DNA of 64,000 nt from Acidobacteria bacterium OLB17 (GCA_001567505.1 LLEU01000030.1:1-64000), one strand, 5' to 3'. Numbered from the stretch's first letter, positions 1,437 through 40,957 are shown. Numbers and translations: made by a program. The notes: generated by a model from the letters alone, not told the origin.

Positions 1437-4400
1437 CTACGGCTGGTACTTGCTCGGTATGGGAGTATCCGTGGGGAGGCCGAACGAAACGACCTGGAAG
1501 CCCGCCGCTGACCGATTCAGATACCAAAGCCCGCCGCGGTAGACAGCCTGGTCGAACTTTCCATCACCGTCGTAATCGCCCGGGACCGGAACGTCACCTG
1601 TCAAACCGAACTGGACGACGGAATACTGCCCGTCACTGCTCCTTAGGGCGTACCAGGTGCCGTTCGACGGACGCCAGACGGCAACATCCGTCTTACCGTC
1701 GCCATCGAAGTCTCCCGGCATGGGCCGATCGGTCGAAAGTCCAAATCCGACCGCGCTGAACGATCCATTGGACGAGTTCAGCCAATACCAAACCCCATTC
1801 GATGGACGGAACACGCTCACATCGGCCTTCCCGTCGCCGTCCCAGTCGCCTGATAGAGGCAGGTCGCCGTTGAGGCCGAAGCTAACCACGTTGAAGGCAC
1901 CATCCGAGCTGTTCAGCCAGTACCAGCGGCTTTCGCTTCCGCGATAAACGGCAACATCCGTCTTGCCGTCACCATCGAAATCCCCGGCCCTGGGTACATC
2001 GCCATTCAGACCGAAACTGCGTATGTCGAATTGGCTGTCGCTGCTGCGGAAGATGTACCAAATGCCGGTCGCGGGCCGCCATACGGCCACGTCCGCCTTG
2101 CCGTCGCCATCGAAGTCGCCCGGCGTCGGGATGTCGCCCTGCGAACCGAAATGCATTGCCGTAAAGCCGGCCGTCGAACGATCTAGGTACCAATCGCCTG
2201 CAGAGTCACGAAATACCGAGACATCCGTCTTTCCGTCGCCGTCGAAGTCGGCAGGCGCTTTTGAATTATTCTCAACGGGCGTACAGACAGCGGTTCCAGA
2301 AACCGCAACGCTGTCAATGTACCAGCCGTCAACTGCGGCATTGTCATCGGCACCGAAACGCCATTTGAACTGAACCGATTGTCCCGCGGCGACGGCCGGA
2401 AGCCGAACCGTGGTCGTAATATACCCACCCGAATTGCCGCTCCAGCCCGGACGATTCACGATCGGATTGTTCGTGCCGCCCTGAAGCGTGCCGTTATATC
2501 CGTTCTGAACGAAGACACCGCCCGCCGTTATGATGTCGGAAAATGCTCCGCCACCGATGCTGATCTCAAGAACGCCGCCGTCCCAGCCCGCTTCCGTATT
2601 GAACTTATGACGGAATGAGACGGTCGAGTTCGCCGTTGTGATCGGGATCGAGGGCGATGTCAGATCCGTTCCGCCGCCGCCGCCCTGCGGGTCGATCGCG
2701 AACGCGGCGTTAGGTGCAGAATCGGGCGTAGTTGTCGTAGTTACGAAAGGCTGCCCGCTCTGAATGCTAGCGACCGTCCATCCCGCAGGGAAATTCGGGG
2801 CCGTAACGCCGTCGAAATTCTCCGTATAGGTCACGGAAGGCTGGCCCACGGCGATCTCTTTTGTTAACGACGAGTTGCCGAAGCTGCTTGTGATATTGAA
2901 CGTGAGCGTGACCACAGAACCGCAAGGCGTGTTCGCCGGCACGGTGTACGAGATCACGCGGCTGACCATACCGCCGCTCGGGATCGTGCCGTAGCTTGTC
3001 GCCGGGCCGCCGTTGATCGAAAGGGACGTGCCGGTCGCGTCAACGCCTCCAAAGTTCGTGAGCGGAATGGTGAATGCCAGTTCTTCGCCCGGATCAGGGA
3101 AGCCGGTGCCATTGCCCGGGGCGTCCGAGATGGTCATTGTCGGAGTTTGAACGACATTAGGCACGTCGAACGCTTCTGTGACGCGGGTCGTCCCGCCTCC
3201 GGTACCGACGTTCTGGATCGACGCACTGTAGCCGATGCCGCGCGTCGCAAAACCCGCCCAAATATCGACGGCATCGACGCCTGCTTCAGGAGCGAGTGCG
3301 CTTCCTTGTGCTGCGGCAATGATCGCATCGCGTTCCGAAAGGAACGTCGGGCCGAGCGGAGCGAGCTTCATCCCGTCGGTCACGAGCTGAAGCGTCTTTC
3401 GGTTTCCGACCGCCCAGCCGAGACGCTGGACAAATCTTGCACGAACTTCCCAAAGGGCAGAACTCCAGATCTCGCCAAGATTGTGAACCTGATCGGCCGT
3501 GGATGATCCGAACGGCCCACGTGGGAAGGCTCCGTCCGAGACGTTCAACTGCGTTTGATCGGCATCAGCGAACGTGAGCGGATTGTGGGGCTTGCCGTTC
3601 GAACCAGTAAAGCTCCTGACTGCCTTCGGAAAGCGTCGGATGCCGTAATAATAGTTGTTCACAAAGCCCGACGAGAGATACGTGTCGTAAGATCCGGTCG
3701 TGTAGATCCCGTTGATCGGGTCGGTCGGTTCGCTCAGGAGGCTGTGCCCGTAGAAATCACCCCAACCTTCGCCCATTCCACGCGACATATTCAGCGAAAG
3801 TCCGCTCCCGTTGCCGTGGAGACGATTCGAGAGGCCGTGCGAGAATTCGTGGATCACGACGTCAGCGTCAAAGTTGCCGTCGAGGTCGGGATTCGGGCCG
3901 CTCCAAAGATACATCTGCATACGGCCGCGTCCGCCGTCCGCGGGCGTTGAGAAATTCGCGTTGTTCGTCCCCGACGTATCCTGGCCCTCGCCGCGAACAC
4001 GGTCGCCGCCGACGCCGCCGCGTCCGAAATTATCCTGCTGGAAGTTGCGGGCCTGCTCGGTGAAACCAAGCCGGTAAAGTTCGTCGTGATACCAGTTGGT
4101 GATGTAGAAGAGCTGCGTAATGCTGCCTTGCTGGTATGCGCTTCCCGGATATGTCTGCTGGGCGGGAACCGGCTGATCGCCCGTGTTGGTGTTCGGGTTG
4201 TACGGGTTAAATACGTAAGAGAAGTTGCGTGAAGCGCTCGATGCCTCGCTGTTCGGATCGACGCCGTCGGCGCCGTCGCGGTCAAGGCCCGCCTGTATCG
4301 CGTTGCCGTCCGTAACGGTGACGCCGTCCGTGATCCATCCGTTGTTATTGAATTGATACGGAGCTTCGTTTCCGATACGGGTGATCGACGAGCGGGAGAT

Positions 4401-5477
4401 CGCGGCGCCCTGTGCGCCGTTAGGCGTAAGCGGGCCCGGGGTCATCGGGAACGGGTTGTCGGCGACATTGATCATCGCGTTCGGGTTCGTATAAACGCTG
4501 TAGGTCGCACTTTGCGTCTGGTCCTCGGTGATGTTCTTTCGCCAAAGCATCGTGCCCGTGTGGGCGTCAACGATGATATAGAACGCGTTCACAGGCTGCC
4601 AGATAAGCACTCGCCACGCCGGAACGGCAACGCCCGGTTCCGTCGGGAAATACATCTTTTCGGCCGTGGTCGCCGAATCGCCTTTGCCGAACGTCATTTT
4701 CAGGGCGTCCGAATTGGCTGCATCCTCGACAAGATCCAATGTCGCGGGATCGACGTTTATATGCCGTGCACCGGCCTTCACGGCCTCAAGCGCGTGGCCG
4801 AAATCATTGGAGATCGCGGAGCCGTCCAAACCCGGGGCAAGGTTGTTTATTACACGGATCATCTCGCCCTGCTTTGTAAACCCGGCCTTGACTTCGCCGC
4901 GGAAAACGGGAACACCGTTGATCTCCTGGTCAAGTTCGACGAAGGACAAATTCCCGTCCGGATTCGTGTAATCGGCGGCAATTTTCAGCGAGTCGATCTC
5001 GGCGGGTGAAACACCCACGAGCGACGAGTTCTCTTTAAGAAAATCGATCAGTATCGGCGCATGTTTGCCGTCACGAACCGCGCTTGGGGCCGTCAGGAAA
5101 TGGCGGCCGCGCGAAACGTCGGGGCCGATGACCTCAGGGATCTTGATGTCGCTGTTATATTCGATCTTCAGCGTCGGCACACGCTCGCGAAGCGCGGCCT
5201 CGCCGCTCGCAAACGAATTCCTTTCCGCCTTCACGTTCACTGCGGACAGGCCCGCGGCCGATCGATATGCCTCGACCTTTGATGCCGCTTCCTTATCCGT
5301 TCGAATGTCGTAATTTGGAAGCAAAGCATCCTCGGAAACGGTCTGAACAAAAAGTCCTTTTGCAGCTTTTGTCGCAAAATGCGGATACAAAAGCACGGCG
5401 GCGACAAGGATCACCGCTGCAATAGAAGCGAACACGAAGCGCAGCTTGTTCTTAGATCGAACGAAAGCGAAATGCAT
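1437..5477 (-). CDS. Secreted M36 (fungalysin-type) metalloprotease with C-terminal FG-GAP/VCBS repeats
   Basis: 1346 residues. An N-terminal membrane/signal segment (residues 13-31) is followed by FTP and PepSY-like propeptide regions (about 90-310) and the M36 catalytic domain (about 325-740). The zinc site is HEFSH at 543-547, with the third ligand expected in the downstream GMGEGWGDF motif. Then come a beta-sandwich region starting around PGNGTGFPDPGEE, a second sandwich (about 880-1065), and six 45-residue repeats each opening with DxDGDGKxD (1077-1346), typical of calcium-binding FG-GAP/VCBS modules. Known M36 enzymes are secreted, self-activated zinc endoproteases, so extracellular protein digestion is inferred. 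The start has a ribosome site (AGGAGA, complement at 5488-5493). It is a tandem paralogue of the gene at 1-1103. Confidence 0.93.
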   Translation of the reverse strand: MHFAFVRSKNKLRFVFASIAAVILVAAVLLYPHFATKAAKGLFVQTVSEDALLPNYDIRTDKEAASKVEAYRSAAGLSAVNVKAERNSFASGEAALRERVPTLKIEYNSDIKIPEVIGPDVSRGRHFLTAPSAVRDGKHAPILIDFLKENSSLVGVSPAEIDSLKIAADYTNPDGNLSFVELDQEINGVPVFRGEVKAGFTKQGEMIRVINNLAPGLDGSAISNDFGHALEAVKAGARHINVDPATLDLVEDAANSDALKMTFGKGDSATTAEKMYFPTEPGVAVPAWRVLIWQPVNAFYIIVDAHTGTMLWRKNITEDQTQSATYSVYTNPNAMINVADNPFPMTPGPLTPNGAQGAAISRSSITRIGNEAPYQFNNNGWITDGVTVTDGNAIQAGLDRDGADGVDPNSEASSASRNFSYVFNPYNPNTNTGDQPVPAQQTYPGSAYQQGSITQLFYITNWYHDELYRLGFTEQARNFQQDNFGRGGVGGDRVRGEGQDTSGTNNANFSTPADGGRGRMQMYLWSGPNPDLDGNFDADVVIHEFSHGLSNRLHGNGSGLSLNMSRGMGEGWGDFYGHSLLSEPTDPINGIYTTGSYDTYLSSGFVNNYYYGIRRFPKAVRSFTGSNGKPHNPLTFADADQTQLNVSDGAFPRGPFGSSTADQVHNLGEIWSSALWEVRARFVQRLGWAVGNRKTLQLVTDGMKLAPLGPTFLSERDAIIAAAQGSALAPEAGVDAVDIWAGFATRGIGYSASIQNVGTGGGTTRVTEAFDVPNVVQTPTMTISDAPGNGTGFPDPGEELAFTIPLTNFGGVDATGTSLSINGGPATSYGTIPSGGMVSRVISYTVPANTPCGSVVTLTFNITSSFGNSSLTKEIAVGQPSVTYTENFDGVTAPNFPAGWTVASIQSGQPFVTTTTTPDSAPNAAFAIDPQGGGGGTDLTSPSIPITTANSTVSFRHKFNTEAGWDGGVLEISIGGGAFSDIITAGGVFVQNGYNGTLQGGTNNPIVNRPGWSGNSGGYITTTVRLPAVAAGQSVQFKWRFGADDNAAVDGWYIDSVAVSGTAVCTPVENNSKAPADFDGDGKTDVSVFRDSAGDWYLDRSTAGFTAMHFGSQGDIPTPGDFDGDGKADVAVWRPATGIWYIFRSSDSQFDIRSFGLNGDVPRAGDFDGDGKTDVAVYRGSESRWYWLNSSDGAFNVVSFGLNGDLPLSGDWDGDGKADVSVFRPSNGVWYWLNSSNGSFSAVGFGLSTDRPMPGDFDGDGKTDVAVWRPSNGTWYALRSSDGQYSVVQFGLTGDVPVPGDYDGDGKFDQAVYRGGLWYLNRSAAGFQVVSFGLPTDTPIPSKYQP
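1440..2249 (-). repeat. Six tandem 135-bp coding repeats (FG-GAP/VCBS modules)
   Basis: Codes for residues 1077-1346 of the M36 protease: six units of 44-46 residues, each starting DFDGDGKTD or a close variant (DWDGDGKAD, DYDGDGKFD) and carrying a W-Y core and an FGLxGDxPxxG end. Unit 1 is 44 residues and the next four are 45. The regular period suggests internal duplication. Confidence 0.9.
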
Positions 5478-34948: not shown

Positions 34949-36115
34949 ATGCAAGCTGTCTTCTACTTTACCTTCACGGCGGCTCTCGTGCTTCTCGGCG
35001 GCGTAGTTCCCGGGGCGGCCCAGAATGAACGTCCGCGGGCGAGAGACCTGGGAATTTCCATTGGCGTACTTAAGCCCGGGCCGGAGAACGCAATTACCGA
35101 TGTCGCCGGCGTTTTGGTCGGGCACAAGACGATCATCAAAGGAGACAACATACGCACCGGCGTCACCGCGATCCTTCCGCACGATGGGAACCTTTTCCGC
35201 AGGAAAGTCCCCGCCGCGATCTTCGTCGGGAATGGTTTTGGAAAGCTTGTCGGTTCGACGCAGGTGAACGAACTTGGCGAGATCGAAACGCCGATCCTGC
35301 TCACCTCGACCCTCGCCGTCCCGAAAACCGCCGATTTCCTGATGGACTATATGCTTGGGCTGCCCGGGAACGAGAACGTCCGCTCGATCAATCCGGTCGT
35401 CGCGGAAACGAACGACGGCGGACTGAACGACATACGCGGCCGTCACATAACACGCGACGATGTCTTCGAAGCGATAAAGAATGCAAAGAGTGGAAGCGTT
35501 GAAGAGGGATCGGTCGGTGCAGGCACGGGCACTATTGCATTTGGTTGGAAAGGCGGTATCGGGACCTCATCGAGAAAGCTGCCCGCGAACCTCGGCGGCT
35601 ACAGCCTCGGCGTTCTCGTCCAAACGAATTTTGGCGGTATTCTCTCGGTTGACGGCGTTCCGGTGGGCAAGGAACTCGGCCAGTATTATCTCAAGAACAT
35701 AGTTGGCAAAGGCAGTACTTCGGTCCGGTCTTTCGATCCATCCGCCGACGGTTCGATAATCATTGTGATCGCGACGGACGCTCCGCTCGGGTCCCGACAG
35801 TTGTCGCGGATCGCCGCACGCTCGATGGCCGGCCTTGCGCGGACAGGTTCCTCAATGACGAACGGGAGCGGCGATTACGCGATCGCGTTCTCGACCGCAA
35901 ACCAGATCAACTCGGACGAAGATGTCCGTGAGATCAAGGTGCTCGGGAACAATGCGATGTCGCCGCTGTTCGAGGCCGTTATAGAAGCGACCGAGGAAGC
36001 GATCATCAATTCACTGCTAAAGGCAACGACCGTCACGGCAAATGGCCGTACGGCCGAGGCCATTCCGATCGAAACCGTCAAGGCGATACTTAGGAAGTAC
36101 GGCCGGTTGAAATAG
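34949..36115 (+). CDS. Exported P1/S58 family peptidase (DmpA-like aminopeptidase)
   Basis: 388 residues. A signal peptide (residues 1-25, ending PGAAQ) is followed by the S58 fold. The self-cleavage nucleophile is S269 in DGSIIIVIATDAPL, with GAGTGT (190-195) and NFGG (227-230) matching the family. DmpA-type enzymes process themselves and then remove N-terminal D- or L-amino acids or beta-peptides. Most relatives are cytoplasmic or periplasmic; the signal peptide points to the periplasm here. Confidence 0.9.
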   Translation: MQAVFYFTFTAALVLLGGVVPGAAQNERPRARDLGISIGVLKPGPENAITDVAGVLVGHKTIIKGDNIRTGVTAILPHDGNLFRRKVPAAIFVGNGFGKLVGSTQVNELGEIETPILLTSTLAVPKTADFLMDYMLGLPGNENVRSINPVVAETNDGGLNDIRGRHITRDDVFEAIKNAKSGSVEEGSVGAGTGTIAFGWKGGIGTSSRKLPANLGGYSLGVLVQTNFGGILSVDGVPVGKELGQYYLKNIVGKGSTSVRSFDPSADGSIIIVIATDAPLGSRQLSRIAARSMAGLARTGSSMTNGSGDYAIAFSTANQINSDEDVREIKVLGNNAMSPLFEAVIEATEEAIINSLLKATTVTANGRTAEAIPIETVKAILRKYGRLK

Positions 36116-36152
36116 ATTCGCCGGTTGCGTTAAGCGAAGAGTTACCTTCGTC

Positions 36153-37457
36153 TCAAACCGTACCATCGTCGTACGAGGTATCGACTGCCGAGGTACTCAT
36201 ATCAGCACCTGAGTCGAAGCCCGTATCTACCATTCCCGCATCGTAGCCAGCATCAATTCCCGCATCATACGTCCCACCCGTTTCAACTGCCGACGACGGA
36301 TCGACATCGTACATTGCAGAACCCGGATCTGCCTCGGCGGCATACGCGTCCGCCTGATCCTGGTACTCCGCGGCGTGTGCGGCACTGCTTTCGGCAGCAT
36401 CCATATTCCCTTGTTCGGCATACCATTCTGCATTGTCGGCAAAGTAGTCTGCGTTCTTTTCGTCATAGACCGCATTGTCGAGATTGTACGCGTCCTGATC
36501 GGATTGCCCTGTGTGGTCGTCGCCGCCCGCCAGGTAGTCAGCGTCGCCTGTCGCGTAAGCGGCGTTTTGGGCATCTTCTTTTGCGGCTTCGTAATCGCCG
36601 GCGGCAATGTGTTCGGCCTGCTGCTCACGATAGTCGGCCGCGACCTCTTGCTGATACGCCGCCTGTTCGAGATCTGCAGAATCCGAGGCACCGAGCATGC
36701 TGTTGTCGCCCGCGGCCCAGGCCGCATCTTCAGCTTCGGCGCGCGCATCTGCCGCCGCTGCATAATCTCCCTTCGCGACGAAGTCATCCGCAGCGGCCTG
36801 TGCATTGCTAGCCGCTTCGGCCTGGGCAGCCTGTTCGGCCGCCAACGGGTCTTCGGCGGGAGCTTCCATTGACGTTGGGTCGGCGGCATAAGTGTCGGGA
36901 GTGGTTTCGGGAAAGGTTGCGGGATCGCCGAGCGTACCGTCCGCAAAACCTTCGCTGCCGAGGTTGAATTCGACCGAGTTCATCGAAACCTCCTCGTCGG
37001 TCGGAAGGCCATCGGACATCTCAATTTCTTCGTCCGCATCGGCTTCGGCAGCTGCATCGACCTCTTCGAACTCGCCGTCACCGTCCGCGTCGGCCAAGAT
37101 AGTCTCGAATTCACCATCGCCGTCCGAATCGACCGCTCCGGCATCAAGCTTTCCGTCGCCGTCCGTGTCGGCCGCGACAACATCGATCGCGCCGTCGCCG
37201 TCCGTATCGGAGCCGGCCGCATCCAAAACGCCGTCGCCATCCGTATCGACCACCACGGTGTCGATCTCGCCGTCACCATCCGTATCGGCACCCGCAGCAT
37301 CAAGCTGGCCATCGCCATCGGTGTCCGCGAGGACGACACCCTCGATGTCTGCCTCGTTCCCGGTATCATCCTCTGCGGGAGACGCAATGATCTCAAATTC
37401 CTCTTCGGTACCGTCTGCGCCGGTTTCCGTAAGAACGTTATTATCTTCAATCGCCAT
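36153..37457 (-). CDS. Very acidic DxDGDG-repeat protein with an alanine-rich coil region
   Basis: 434 residues, extremely rich in Asp, Glu and Ala. Residues 44-134 are seven tandem 13-residue units of the form xDTDGDGxxDxxx, resembling dockerin/thrombospondin-3 calcium loops. Residues about 205-370 contain A-x-GDY-x-AA-type helical units (for example VAKGDYAAAADARAEAEDAAWAAGD) that look TPR-like, and the tail is G/D/Y-rich. There is no signal peptide or membrane span. Its start lies inside the end of the M48-like gene (11-base overlap) behind an AGGAGA site, so the two are one operon. Calcium binding is inferred from the motif; the job is unknown. Confidence 0.75.
   Translation of the reverse strand: MAIEDNNVLTETGADGTEEEFEIIASPAEDDTGNEADIEGVVLADTDGDGQLDAAGADTDGDGEIDTVVVDTDGDGVLDAAGSDTDGDGAIDVVAADTDGDGKLDAGAVDSDGDGEFETILADADGDGEFEEVDAAAEADADEEIEMSDGLPTDEEVSMNSVEFNLGSEGFADGTLGDPATFPETTPDTYAADPTSMEAPAEDPLAAEQAAQAEAASNAQAAADDFVAKGDYAAAADARAEAEDAAWAAGDNSMLGASDSADLEQAAYQQEVAADYREQQAEHIAAGDYEAAKEDAQNAAYATGDADYLAGGDDHTGQSDQDAYNLDNAVYDEKNADYFADNAEWYAEQGNMDAAESSAAHAAEYQDQADAYAAEADPGSAMYDVDPSSAVETGGTYDAGIDAGYDAGMVDTGFDSGADMSTSAVDTSYDDGTV
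37056..37328 (-). repeat. Seven tandem 39-bp coding repeats (DxDGDG units)
   Basis: Codes for residues 44-134 of the acidic protein: seven exact 13-codon units, each containing D-x-D-GDG. The last two are diverged (VDSDGDGEFETIL, ADADGDGEFEEVD). Codon differences between units show it is an old array, not a fresh duplication. Confidence 0.92.
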
Positions 37458-38787
37458 AATTCAATGTCTCCTCTTTTTTTGGCGGCTTTGGTGCGGGTGA
37501 TGCACCTGCCGCTTTCGGATTCTTCTTTAAGACTGTTAGCTTGCCGCATTTTTGCACGGGACATTTCACCGACAGTTGCGATTTGCCAGCAAGTGCGGCC
37601 TTCGGAACGGTCATAGGCGTTCCACAGGCCGTGCACTTGACCCGCAGCACATCGTTATTCTGCGGCGCAGGAGCTGGTGCCGGCTTCTTCGGTGCGGCGC
37701 TTGCGACAATGGACCGGATGCGTCCGAGTGAATGCCGGAATTCGGGGCTTTCGACGAATTGGCTTAACAGCTTAAGTCGCGGCCCGATGTAAGGCGTCGA
37801 TGAAGTGGTCAATTCGGAGAGCCGCGTCACCGTTTCATCGTCCTCGACCTGCTGTTTTATCCACGCCTCGATATTCAACTGGCGGAACATATAGGACGAC
37901 CGTAACGACCACGAGAGCAGTACGCGGCGGGCGACCTCCTCGCTTCCAACGGTGAGCACTCCTGCGCGGTCGGCGGTGATCTCGGCCTGCCGGGCCCACG
38001 CAAGCAATGGCATCTCAAGAGCGCCGCCGACAAGCGCGGTCGGACTTAGGATCGCATTGAAAATACCGCCGGCCATCATGCCCTTCTGTGGGCCTTGTTC
38101 ACCGAGGAAGAAGCGGATAACGGCTTTCCAGAGAGCATGCCCCGCCTTGCAATGGCCCATTTCTCGTGCCAAGAGGAAAAGCATATCAACGCCCTGGAAG
38201 TTCCCGACAAGTGCAGACCCCACGACGACAAAAGAGTCATCTTCCGTGCCGAAGGTGAGCATATCCCAAGGCCGTTCGCCCGAAATATAGACGTCCGGCA
38301 TATGCGACATACCGAGAATGCGTGCAGCACGGACGGCCTGTCCGTAGATGTGCGGCAACTGGTTCTCGCCGAGCAGAATGCCGTTGAATGAAGCCTCGAT
38401 CCAGCGGCGGCCGACCTTCTGGGAGACCGCACGAGCGGCCGCGTTCAGTGGCTTCATTGCACGGAGGGCGGCCATCGCTTTCGCATCAGCGGCCCAGGCG
38501 AATGCCGAATTATCCACCGCGTACCCCGGCACGAGCGGCCGCAGCCATCCGCATTCGGAGCAGATGACGCGGCGGTCCGCAAGCCTTGGCCAAAGCCGCC
38601 GCAAGTGCGGCACGTCACCTGTTGCACCGGCGGCGGATATCCGATCCACGTTCGGGCGGGCGGAACCTGATATTGCTGCTGCGGAAACTGAGGGGCCGCG
38701 GGCGGTGCGAAATTCTGTGGCGATCCTGCAGGCGGTGTTTGCACGAATTGCTGAGGCGGTGGCGCGGCCCAGATCGCAACGCCGCAA
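37447..38787 (-). CDS. Zinc-ribbon M48-like protein with degenerate protease motif, C-terminal part (frameshifted near 38580)
   Basis: Meaningful sequence starts at about 38580 (ADRRVICSECGWLRPL). The region resembles an M48 (HtpX/Ste24-like) peptidase domain: the helix MLFLLAREMGHCKAGHALWK sits where HExxH belongs, but the first zinc histidine is arginine (REMGH), while a partner helix, EITADRAGVL, keeps the usual E-x-x-x-D layout. The C-terminal zinc ribbon is VKCTACGTPMTVP...VKCPVQKCGKLTVLKK. It may therefore be a non-catalytic or altered enzyme. It overlaps the acidic-repeat gene downstream. The part from 38787 to about 38580 in this frame is meaningless because of the shift. Confidence 0.75.
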   Translation of the reverse strand: MRRCDLGRATASAIRANTACRIATEFRTARGPSVSAAAISGSARPNVDRISAAGATGDVPHLRRLWPRLADRRVICSECGWLRPLVPGYAVDNSAFAWAADAKAMAALRAMKPLNAAARAVSQKVGRRWIEASFNGILLGENQLPHIYGQAVRAARILGMSHMPDVYISGERPWDMLTFGTEDDSFVVVGSALVGNFQGVDMLFLLAREMGHCKAGHALWKAVIRFFLGEQGPQKGMMAGGIFNAILSPTALVGGALEMPLLAWARQAEITADRAGVLTVGSEEVARRVLLSWSLRSSYMFRQLNIEAWIKQQVEDDETVTRLSELTTSSTPYIGPRLKLLSQFVESPEFRHSLGRIRSIVASAAPKKPAPAPAPQNNDVLRVKCTACGTPMTVPKAALAGKSQLSVKCPVQKCGKLTVLKKNPKAAGASPAPKPPKKEETLNYGD

Positions 38788-38867
38788 TATATGCAGAACT
38801 TTGAGCCGGCCGTGGGCTGCCGGTGGCCGTTCTGACAGATCGGTAAGTTTTGGTGCTGTTCCGCCAT
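38454..38867 (-). CDS. Zinc-ribbon M48-like protein, N-terminal part (same gene as 37447)
   Basis: Starts at ATG 38867 and encodes a zinc ribbon (CQNGH...SKFCIYCG), a Pro/Gln-rich linker (PPQQFVQTPPAGSPQNFAPP), and a second half-ribbon VTCRTCGGFGQGL. Here the frame breaks; the matching half CSECGW continues in the frame of the following part, so a single base is missing at about 38579-38583. From there to 38454 this frame is meaningless. The joined protein would have a zinc ribbon at each end, suggesting protein-protein or nucleic-acid contacts. Confidence 0.72.
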   Translation of the reverse strand: MAEQHQNLPICQNGHRQPTAGSKFCIYCGVAIWAAPPPQQFVQTPPAGSPQNFAPPAAPQFPQQQYQVPPARTWIGYPPPVQQVTCRTCGGFGQGLRTAASSAPNADGCGRSCRGTRWIIRHSPGPLMRKRWPPSVQ

Positions 38868-38877
38868 TGTCCCTGAC

Positions 38878-39279
38878 CTAGTAGTATGCGTATGGATTCG
38901 ACGCCGCCATCATGGAAAGCAAGATCCAAATAATATAGCCGATAATATGGAGGACAGAAGTTATGATGCCGCCCCAAAGCCCGACCTGCGCCATCCATTT
39001 TCCGCCCGCCGGCGATGTGCCTTTATTGATCGCGTCAAGCTCCATCCAGCCGACGATCGCCGCCGGGATCCCGGCAAAAGGCCCGCAGCAGACGAGTGCG
39101 GCGATCGCGAGTACCAATGCGATCGTCGCTTTTTGACCGGTGCCTGCCGCGGCAGTCGGTTGGCCGATCACAGGCGGTGCAGCCCCGGCCGGAGGTCCGG
39201 AAAGCGGTGCGGCACAATTCAGGCAGAACATTGCTTCGGCAATGTTGGGTTGTTTACATTGGGGACAGATCTTGGTCAT
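38878..39279 (-). CDS. Zinc-ribbon DUF4190-type membrane protein
   Basis: 133 residues: an N-terminal zinc ribbon (CPQCKQPNIAEAMFCLNC), a Gly/Pro/Ala linker, then two hydrophobic spans (IALVLAIAALVCCGPFAGIPAAIVG; LWGGIITSVLHIIGYIIWILLSM) with the GWxEL-type core of DUF4190 proteins. It ends ten bases before the zinc-ribbon M48-like gene and leads the three-gene operon, which may assemble at the membrane. The function of DUF4190 proteins is not known. Confidence 0.82.
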   Translation of the reverse strand: MTKICPQCKQPNIAEAMFCLNCAAPLSGPPAGAAPPVIGQPTAAAGTGQKATIALVLAIAALVCCGPFAGIPAAIVGWMELDAINKGTSPAGGKWMAQVGLWGGIITSVLHIIGYIIWILLSMMAASNPYAYY

Positions 39280-39460
39280 GCGATCTTAACTGAGCGTAAA
39301 GACGAATACCGCCGGCGCGCACGGCGTGCAAACGATCGGCTCGTCAGTCAACTTCTACCGTTAAATGCGGCAAAACGGTCGAATATGCGACAATAAATTT
39401 CGATTAACCCAGTAAATATACTCGAAGTTGTGAATATTCAAAAGTGAACCGGGCCAGCTG

Positions 39461-40957
39461 ATGTCAAAAGAACGCGACTTGATCTTAAAGAACTATATTG
39501 GCGGGGAACTCGTCGAACCTGCTTCGGGCCGCTATCTCGACGGCTTCGAACCTGCGACGGGTGAGATCTATTCCCAGATCCCGGATTCAGACGAGAGCGA
39601 TGTCAACGCAGCGGTCGAGGCCGCAAAGCGCGCCTTCCCTACGTGGTCGGCGATGCCTCCGGAAGATCGGTTCACGACGCTTATGCGGATCTGCGGCCTG
39701 ATCGAACGCGATCTTGATCCGCTGGCACTTGCCGAATCTACCGACAACGGAAAGCCTGTATCGCTAGCAAAGGCGGTCGATATTCCGCGGGCCGTCGCAA
39801 ACTTTCGCTTTTATGCGACGGCGGCGATGCACATGACGAACGAATCTTACGAGACGGCGCGTCCGGACGGCGTACAAGCCATCAACTACACGCTGAGACA
39901 GCCGCTCGGCGTCGTCGGCTGCATTTCGCCGTGGAATCTTCCGCTTTACCTTTTTACCTGGAAGGTCGCACCGGCACTTGCCGCGGGCTGCACGGTCGTC
40001 GCAAAGCCGAGCGAGGTCACACCGATGACCGCGTTCCTTCTATCGAAACTCTGCATAGAAGCGGGCCTACCGCCGGGCGTGTTGAATATCGTTCACGGCA
40101 GCGGGCCGAAGGTCGGTGCCGCTATCGTCCAGCATGCGGACGTCAAGGCGATCTCGTTCACCGGCGGCACAAAAACCGGCGAGGCGATCGCACGTACGGC
40201 CGCGCCGATGTTCAAGAAACTCTCACTTGAACTCGGCGGCAAGAACCCGAACATCATCTTCGCTGATTGCGATTACGAAGAAATGCTCGCAACGACGGTG
40301 CGTTCCTCGTTCTCGAATCAAGGCGAGATCTGCCTTTGCGGTTCGCGTATCTTCGTCGAGCGGCCGCTTTACGAAAAGTTTCGAAATGACTTTGTAGAAC
40401 GCGTCAAAGCTCTTAAGGTCGGCGATCCGCTCGACGATGAGACCGATGTCGGAGCGATCGTCTCGCGGCAGCATTTCGAGAAGATCTTGTCCTACATCGA
40501 TCTCGCAAAAAAAGAGGGCGGCACGATCTTGACCGGCGGCGCGCAGGCGGAACCACGCCCGGTCGGGAATGTGTCCGGTGAACGCCCTCGCTCTCTGACC
40601 GGCTGGTTCATCGAGCCGACGGTCATTGAAGATCTTTCGCACGATTGCCGCACGAATCAGGAGGAGATCTTCGGCCCGGTCGTGACCATTATGCCGTTTG
40701 ACACTGAAGCCGAAGTTTTGGCCTACGCGAATTCCGTCCGCTACGGCCTTTCGGCGACCGTCTGGACGGAAAACCTTTCGCGTGCGCATCGCATCGCATC
40801 AATGCTTGAGTCCGGCATCGTCTGGATAAATTGCTGGCTGCTTCGCGACCTTCGAACACCTTTCGGCGGTGTGAAAGACAGTGGCGTCGGCCGCGAAGGC
40901 GGCTTCGAGGCCCTAAGATTCTTTACGGACGAGAAGAATGTGTGTGTAAAGATTTGA
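39461..40957 (+). CDS. 2-aminomuconate semialdehyde dehydrogenase (ALDH family)
   Basis: 498 residues. Catalytic C291 lies in GEICLCGSRIFVE, nearly the motif of human ALDH8A1 (GEICLCTSRIFV), and E257 (LELGG) and N159 (SPWN) complete the site. Known members oxidise 2-aminomuconate semialdehyde to 2-aminomuconate with NAD. Its place beside the kynurenine genes supports this rather than the closely related 2-hydroxymuconate semialdehyde substrate. It faces the opposite way from the zinc-ribbon operon; the 180-base gap holds the promoter. Confidence 0.88.
   Translation: MSKERDLILKNYIGGELVEPASGRYLDGFEPATGEIYSQIPDSDESDVNAAVEAAKRAFPTWSAMPPEDRFTTLMRICGLIERDLDPLALAESTDNGKPVSLAKAVDIPRAVANFRFYATAAMHMTNESYETARPDGVQAINYTLRQPLGVVGCISPWNLPLYLFTWKVAPALAAGCTVVAKPSEVTPMTAFLLSKLCIEAGLPPGVLNIVHGSGPKVGAAIVQHADVKAISFTGGTKTGEAIARTAAPMFKKLSLELGGKNPNIIFADCDYEEMLATTVRSSFSNQGEICLCGSRIFVERPLYEKFRNDFVERVKALKVGDPLDDETDVGAIVSRQHFEKILSYIDLAKKEGGTILTGGAQAEPRPVGNVSGERPRSLTGWFIEPTVIEDLSHDCRTNQEEIFGPVVTIMPFDTEAEVLAYANSVRYGLSATVWTENLSRAHRIASMLESGIVWINCWLLRDLRTPFGGVKDSGVGREGGFEALRFFTDEKNVCVKI

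Follow-up and report, generated by a model that had tools for sequence, protein, structure and literature searches.

A co-inherited three-gene cassette of Acidobacteriota with an M48-like protein of altered zinc site, a hyperacidic partner and a zinc-ribbon membrane protein

The window considered here, that is, the whole stretch of DNA analysed, comprises 64,000 nucleotides from Acidobacteria bacterium OLB17 (GCA_001567505.1 LLEU01000030.1:1-64000), whose genome is that of a Pyrinomonadaceae-like member of Blastocatellia (Acidobacteriota), according to the named records of its closest relatives. It contains a cassette of three tightly packed minus-strand genes, running from 39279 to 36153, which code for a zinc-ribbon membrane protein, a protein related to the M48 metallopeptidases whose zinc site is altered, and a hyperacidic protein. 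An earlier note, made from the sequence alone, had described these genes as an operon with a 10-base gap and an 11-base overlap. Both are indeed seen on the minus strand, the gap lying between the membrane-protein gene and the M48-like gene, and the overlap joining the stop of the latter with the start of the acidic-protein gene. The features of the cassette, given with the evidence on which each is placed, including open reading frames (ORFs), are as follows:

38878..39279, minus strand: first gene of the cassette, coding for the zinc-ribbon and DUF4190-like membrane protein (ORF).
38867-37447, minus strand: M48-like gene, whole span including both frames (ORFs and intact relatives).
38454..38867, minus strand: N-terminal frame of the M48-like gene, with a zinc ribbon, a Pro/Gln-rich linker and the start of a second CxxC; correct frame only to ~38580 (ORF, alignment with intact relatives).
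38579..38580, minus strand: one-base deletion (frameshift) in the M48-like gene of this assembly (DNA alignment with relatives).
37447..38787, minus strand: ORF with the remainder of the M48-like protein, namely the second zinc ribbon, the M48 domain with REMGH and a C-terminal CxxC/CxxC zinc ribbon; true frame from ~38579 (ORF, Pfam, alignment).
38152..38166, minus strand: REMGH replacing HExxH, with the Arg codon CGA at 38164-38166 (sequence, relatives).
37966..37983, minus strand: EITADR, in which the third zinc-ligand Glu is kept (37981-37983; sequence, alignment).
37777..37797, minus strand: TPYIGPR, counterpart of the HPx4R plug of M48 peptidases, its His being changed to Thr (alignment; motif from PMC7950410).
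37447..37457, minus strand: 11-base overlap of the M48-like stop with the acidic-protein start (congener and other-genus loci).
36153..37457, minus strand: gene of the hyperacidic protein, 434 residues (ORF).
37074..37325, minus strand: seven DxDGDG units repeating every 13 residues and predicted to form a loop and a short strand each (sequence, structure model).
36330..36848, minus strand: invariant helical 'GDYxAA' domain, residues ~204-376 (alignment; predicted local distance difference test, pLDDT, mostly 90-98 in the model).

The three genes are inherited together. Among 41 congeneric genomes, the acidic gene and a close orthologue of the DUF4190-like gene (DUF4190 matches with E above 1e-10 being treated as paralogues) occur together in 25 and are both missing from the other 16, and the presence of the M48-like gene follows the same 25-genome set. 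In the carriers, the trio lies on the opposite strand between an S58-peptidase gene and an aldehyde-dehydrogenase gene, at the same chromosomal site throughout the genus, while the empty sites of G006, G032 and G456 are clean, the two flanking genes simply abutting (window 36115-39461 in carriers compared with L113, L116 and L119). This shared presence and absence, together with the clean empty sites, shows that the genes belong together, and the cassette is a real co-inherited unit in some Acidobacteria, all statements on distribution being made within the Acidobacteriota. On a tree of the aldehyde dehydrogenase, which as one flanking gene gives only a rough species tree, the presence of the cassette needs 7 changes, at least 3 of them forced by well-supported branches, indicating repeated gain or loss of the three genes as one block. 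Elsewhere in the family, other genera carry the trio in unchanged order but in different surroundings (L140, L141, L143, L144); in L142 the M48-acidic pair is found with no adjacent membrane gene listed, and the G284 locus is cut by a contig end. A second family and G074 also retain the M48-like/acidic pair, sometimes together with the membrane gene and sometimes not, two separate copies being present in G037. The earlier note had named a lack of relationship between the genes in other genomes as what would undo the operon; co-occurrence in the neighbourhood search, empty sites and recurrence in other neighbourhoods rule out that the three are unrelated neighbours.

The patchy presence, the loss as a block and the overlapping genes would also fit an anti-phage defence or toxin-antitoxin unit, in which an acidic DNA mimic or antitoxin would be paired with a protease-like partner and which would account for the patchy gain and loss. 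This explanation is nevertheless very improbable: none of 5027 PADLOC defence models matched the cassette at E <= 0.1, the chromosomal site is the same across the genus, between housekeeping-type genes, and there is no toxin-like or nuclease domain.

Besides co-inheritance, the spacing of the second and third genes is itself conserved. The 11-base overlap has the same length in 21 of the 22 congener loci measured, and in the exception, L045, a later start codon would also give 11 bases; in the other genera of the family it is found in most loci, with 8 bases in L142. Such an overlap of stop and start codons suggests that the M48-like and acidic proteins would be made by coupled, matched synthesis. 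No upstream motif common to the cassettes was strong enough to suggest a regulator.

The M48-like gene, first taken to be an intact frame, is split across two frames in this assembly by one missing base at ~38579/38580, as revealed by DNA alignment with relatives; the gap may be a true mutation or an assembly slip, and the flanking membrane-protein and acidic-protein genes are intact despite this frameshift. Since the relatives' M48-like genes are single ORFs of about 450-540 codons, with the exception of G008, and since the base is absent from the window only, programmed frameshifting is ruled out. In the congener G008, the gene is degenerate, having a frameshift and a loss of ~1 kilobase that includes the catalytic region, and what is left is joined to the acidic gene (L053 5575-7305 / G008:C3:69117-70718). 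With a copy so degenerate, a natural fusion of the M48-like and acidic proteins is ruled out.

The first protein of the cassette has 133 residues, with a CxxC/CxxC zinc ribbon and two hydrophobic segments by hydropathy, as expected of the zinc-ribbon membrane protein announced from the sequence. It matches DUF4190 over the full domain with 31.9 bits (E 1.2e-7), under the Pfam cut-off of 35 bits, and is a probable sub-threshold member of this family; the ribbon itself matches DZR/Zn_Ribbon_1 with E ~5e-4.

The second protein matches Peptidase_M48 (PF01435) with E 8.5e-8 to 1.6e-8 (32.5-35 bits, above the curated cut-off of 20.3 bits). The 17 best structural matches of its predicted structure are all M48, M56 or minigluzincin chains, the best being BepA 6ait_B (Z 10.1, root-mean-square deviation 4.6 Å over 166 residues), and others including BlaR1, 3c37 and HtpX; the protein is accordingly modelled with a gluzincin/M48 fold. 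Searches of solved-structure sequences with both alignments gave no match. With the M48 proteins BepA, HtpX and Ste24, the family members that carry Arg in place of the first His, referred to here as R-type, share the fold, the active-site helix, the catalytic Glu, the second His, the third-ligand Glu and the Pro and Arg of the plug, but they differ in the two replaced His residues described below, in having zinc ribbons at both ends and in that no transmembrane segment was found. Cytosolic zinc-ribbon M48 proteins of other Acidobacteriota (for instance L026, L027 and G000:C40) have the M48 core and zinc ribbons in common with them, at 25-30% identity, but keep HExxH and, in L026, also the plug HP. 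Plasmid relatives from Thermus, Tsukamurella, Nonomuraea and others are distant M48 proteins, the Thermus one having HEFGH.

In M48 peptidases, four residues coordinate the zinc, namely the two His of HExxH, a Glu from a following helix and the His of the HPx4R plug (PMC7950410). Two of these four are replaced in the R-type proteins, the first HExxH His by Arg and the plug His by Thr, the plug reading TPYxxxR with its Pro and Arg kept. The lost zinc ligand pointed out in the earlier note is thus real, and a second one is gone as well. All R-type relatives examined have RE(M/L/I)GH (the sequences of alignment A1, five loci of other genera of the family, and G074 of another class), the Arg spanning three Acidobacteriota families and being spelled by five codons (CGC, CGG, CGT, CGA, AGG) among 27 distinct sequences. 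An Arg that is fixed while its codon varies in this way has been maintained by selection. The suspicion, raised together with the first observation, that it might be a sequencing error for His is ruled out by the same facts, and turning CGA into CAT or CAC would take two changes. No R-type relative departs from the catalytic Glu, the second His or the third-ligand Glu (in EITADR or EITGDR). Conservation peaks in the two active-site helices, with a column identity of 0.93-0.95 compared with 0.55-0.84 in the rest of the protein; the cleft is the most conserved part and is under selection. No new invariant His, Asp or Cys was found beside the altered site, Cys253 not being invariant, and the four other M48 proteins of the host genome retain HExxH. 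By homology the protein is a member of M48, while by its defining residues it would not be an active M48 peptidase. Loss of ligand residues in a protein conserved under selection is what marks a pseudopeptidase, and the M48-like protein reads as one. The idea that it may be a scaffold is consistent with the ligand loss, and a non-catalytic binding platform is likely.

A relative with an intact motif sheds light on the possible origin of this arrangement. In G260, which belongs to another class, an M48 protein (L104:6026-7219, minus strand) with HEIGH shows 29% identity over 359 columns and resembles the R-type by its N- and C-terminal zinc ribbons and its TPYxxxR plug, but differs from it in the intact HExxH and in an Asp as third ligand. 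An acidic gene with DxDGDG-type repeats lies 23 nucleotides downstream, although its product, unlike the R-type partners, is without the helical domain. This neighbourhood suggests, as the ancestor of the R-type pair, an active protease that was already coupled to an acidic protein.

Since the ancestral arrangement may thus have had an active protease, one may ask whether the M48-like protein is still an altered but active metalloprotease, in which the retained Glu, second His and third-ligand Glu would hold a metal in a different geometry and the acidic protein would be a substrate, an inhibitor or a metal-responsive regulator. The invariance of these three residues and the strongest conservation falling on the whole cleft agree with such an activity. 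It is nonetheless unlikely, given that half of the ligands are replaced, one of them by a residue whose positive charge would take the place of the metal, with no new invariant candidate ligand beside the site.

A non-catalytic reading of the M48-like protein has precedents in kind. The metallopeptidase pseudoenzymes ADAM22, FtsHi and alpha-MPP have their HExxH ligands replaced and keep the fold for binding or assembly, FtsHi4 having REAAV for HExxH (PMC11266112). Such cases are described in M1, M12, M13, M14, M16, M24, M41 and other families, M48 not being mentioned in the text (PMC11266112); the likeness to the R-type is one of how the proteins work, between members of different families.

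The third protein counts 120 D/E against 6 K/R among its 434 residues, with a computed charge of about -114 and no Cys. Its seven DxDGDG units, exactly seven with a strict 13-residue spacing over residues 45-128, had been noticed as calcium-loop-like, together with the absence of a signal peptide, and both points hold, there being no hydrophobic N-terminus either. The number of seven is, however, specific to the genus and not the defining part, the copy number varying from 0 to 9 among relatives. L047, L048, L051, L025 and L142-L144 have no loops or hardly any, while the M48-acidic pair is still present in them and the helical domain is invariant where aligned. This domain, made of helical hairpins, is the conserved core of the protein, and the DxDGDG array an optional part; a short linker motif, LPTxEE(I/L)SxNSVEF, is also kept in most members. 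The loops do not qualify as EF-hands, EF-hand_5 scoring 22.8 bits under a cut-off of 25.9 and the predicted elements that flank the loops being short strands instead of helices. Sequence-family, solved-structure and structural searches linked the acidic protein to no known fold or family, Foldseek returning nothing significant with its model; the VIA matches of this model to TarM/SdgB strands (Z ~8) and to helical bundles are within the range of common arrangements. In G074, the acidic partner has no repeats and a separate ORF (L105 2-658, G074:C192) carries DxDGDG repeats and lacks the helical domain, showing that the two parts can be encoded by separate genes. The C-terminus (window 36153-36180) is conserved and acidic, ends in D(D)GTV, DTV, SDV or DTL, and resembles a C-terminal recognition tag.

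With seven perfect DxDGDG loops (up to nine in congeners) and such a negative charge, the acidic protein might act as a cytosolic binder of calcium or other divalent cations, in a cation-buffering or stress module in which the M48-like protein would only mature or hold it. That DxDGDG repeats also occur in the acidic protein beside the HEIGH cousin, and in G074 on an ORF of their own, goes in the same direction. Yet the pair is kept where the loops have (nearly) disappeared, with its helical domain unchanged, and this alternative is doubtful.

An acidic calcium-loop protein without a signal peptide, next to a membrane protein in the same operon, may also evoke a dedicated export or surface-display apparatus, in which the acidic protein would dock on the zinc-ribbon membrane protein and be exported non-classically. 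The cassette shows no gene for a transport ATPase, a channel or a secretion component, however, and the pair exists without an adjacent membrane gene in several genomes. In L049 (7136-8432, G023:C191), the reading frame of the acidic protein continues into RTX repeats where the contig ends, but the second half of the acidic gene opens G023:C103, so that the apparent link to RTX and type I secretion is best explained as a probable assembly chimera at a repeat. Export is thus improbable, and the hint of an unusual route in the earlier note is not borne out: only the zinc-ribbon protein is of inner-membrane type, its two companions look cytosolic, and what is conserved in the acidic protein is the helical domain.

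The reading preferred here is that of a metal-free M48 pseudoprotease whose cleft would bind the acidic protein translated alongside it, and for which the zinc-ribbon membrane protein would serve as anchor; its probability is put at about 0.4. Starting from the established sequence, conservation, co-inheritance and fold class, we infer the binding, the absence of catalysis, the anchoring and the part played by calcium. The cassette would thus make a dedicated two-protein complex with a membrane partner, in which the M48-like protein has kept the M48 fold and presumably lost a working zinc site. The guanidinium of the Arg would fill the place of the metal and pair with the retained Glu residues, allowing the cleft to bind a peptide without cutting it. 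The bound ligand would be the acidic partner, held through its helical domain or through a linear motif such as the LPTxEE-containing linker. Where present, the DxDGDG array may add cation (calcium) binding as an accessory role, and anchoring of the complex to the inner membrane would fall to the first protein, which combines two membrane segments with the same type of zinc ribbon.

Several points weigh against this proposal. The loss of two ligands is no proof of lost catalysis, another metal geometry or chemistry being possible, and the model of the M48-like protein is of low confidence (mean pLDDT 59.8). The DUF4190-like gene does not adjoin the pair in G037:C3, G048 and G074, and the DxDGDG repeats are the only part that the acidic protein of the G260 cousin has in common with the R-type partners. 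Finally, the cassette is dispensable, as two copies are disrupted (in the window and in G008) and 16 of 41 congeners are without it.

Two further observations concern neighbouring or similar genes. In two different families, the surroundings of the cassette include genes for Ser/Thr protein kinases (and FHA-like proteins; L058 8601-11727, L140 9922-11868, L143 318-2246), and LPTxEE, in the linker, could serve as a phospho-site or be bound by FHA domains. Elsewhere in the window, at 1437-5477, a large ORF of 1346 residues apparently codes for an exported DxDxDG protein, with six such motifs and a hydrophobic stretch at the N-terminus.

Searches of an open-access library for M48 pseudoproteases, DUF4190 or DxDGDG systems found nothing on this cassette and no described system that combines its parts, in agreement with the initial impression that it matches no known system. 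The cassette is real, co-inherited and undescribed, and resembles in kind the other metallopeptidase pseudoenzymes. It links Acidobacteriota genes that are otherwise labelled 'M48 family metallopeptidase', 'hypothetical' and 'DUF4190'. Tentatively, it may be a module in which an M48 fold was turned into a metal-free binder by an Arg in the metal site and given a dedicated hyperacidic partner, the HEIGH cousin representing the step that precedes this conversion. If this is true, the cousin beside its DxDGDG gene would be a living example of that step. The active-motif HEIGH cousin, the R-type pair and the R-type trio form a natural series in which the change from protease to binding protein, and the nature of the bound ligand, may be followed.

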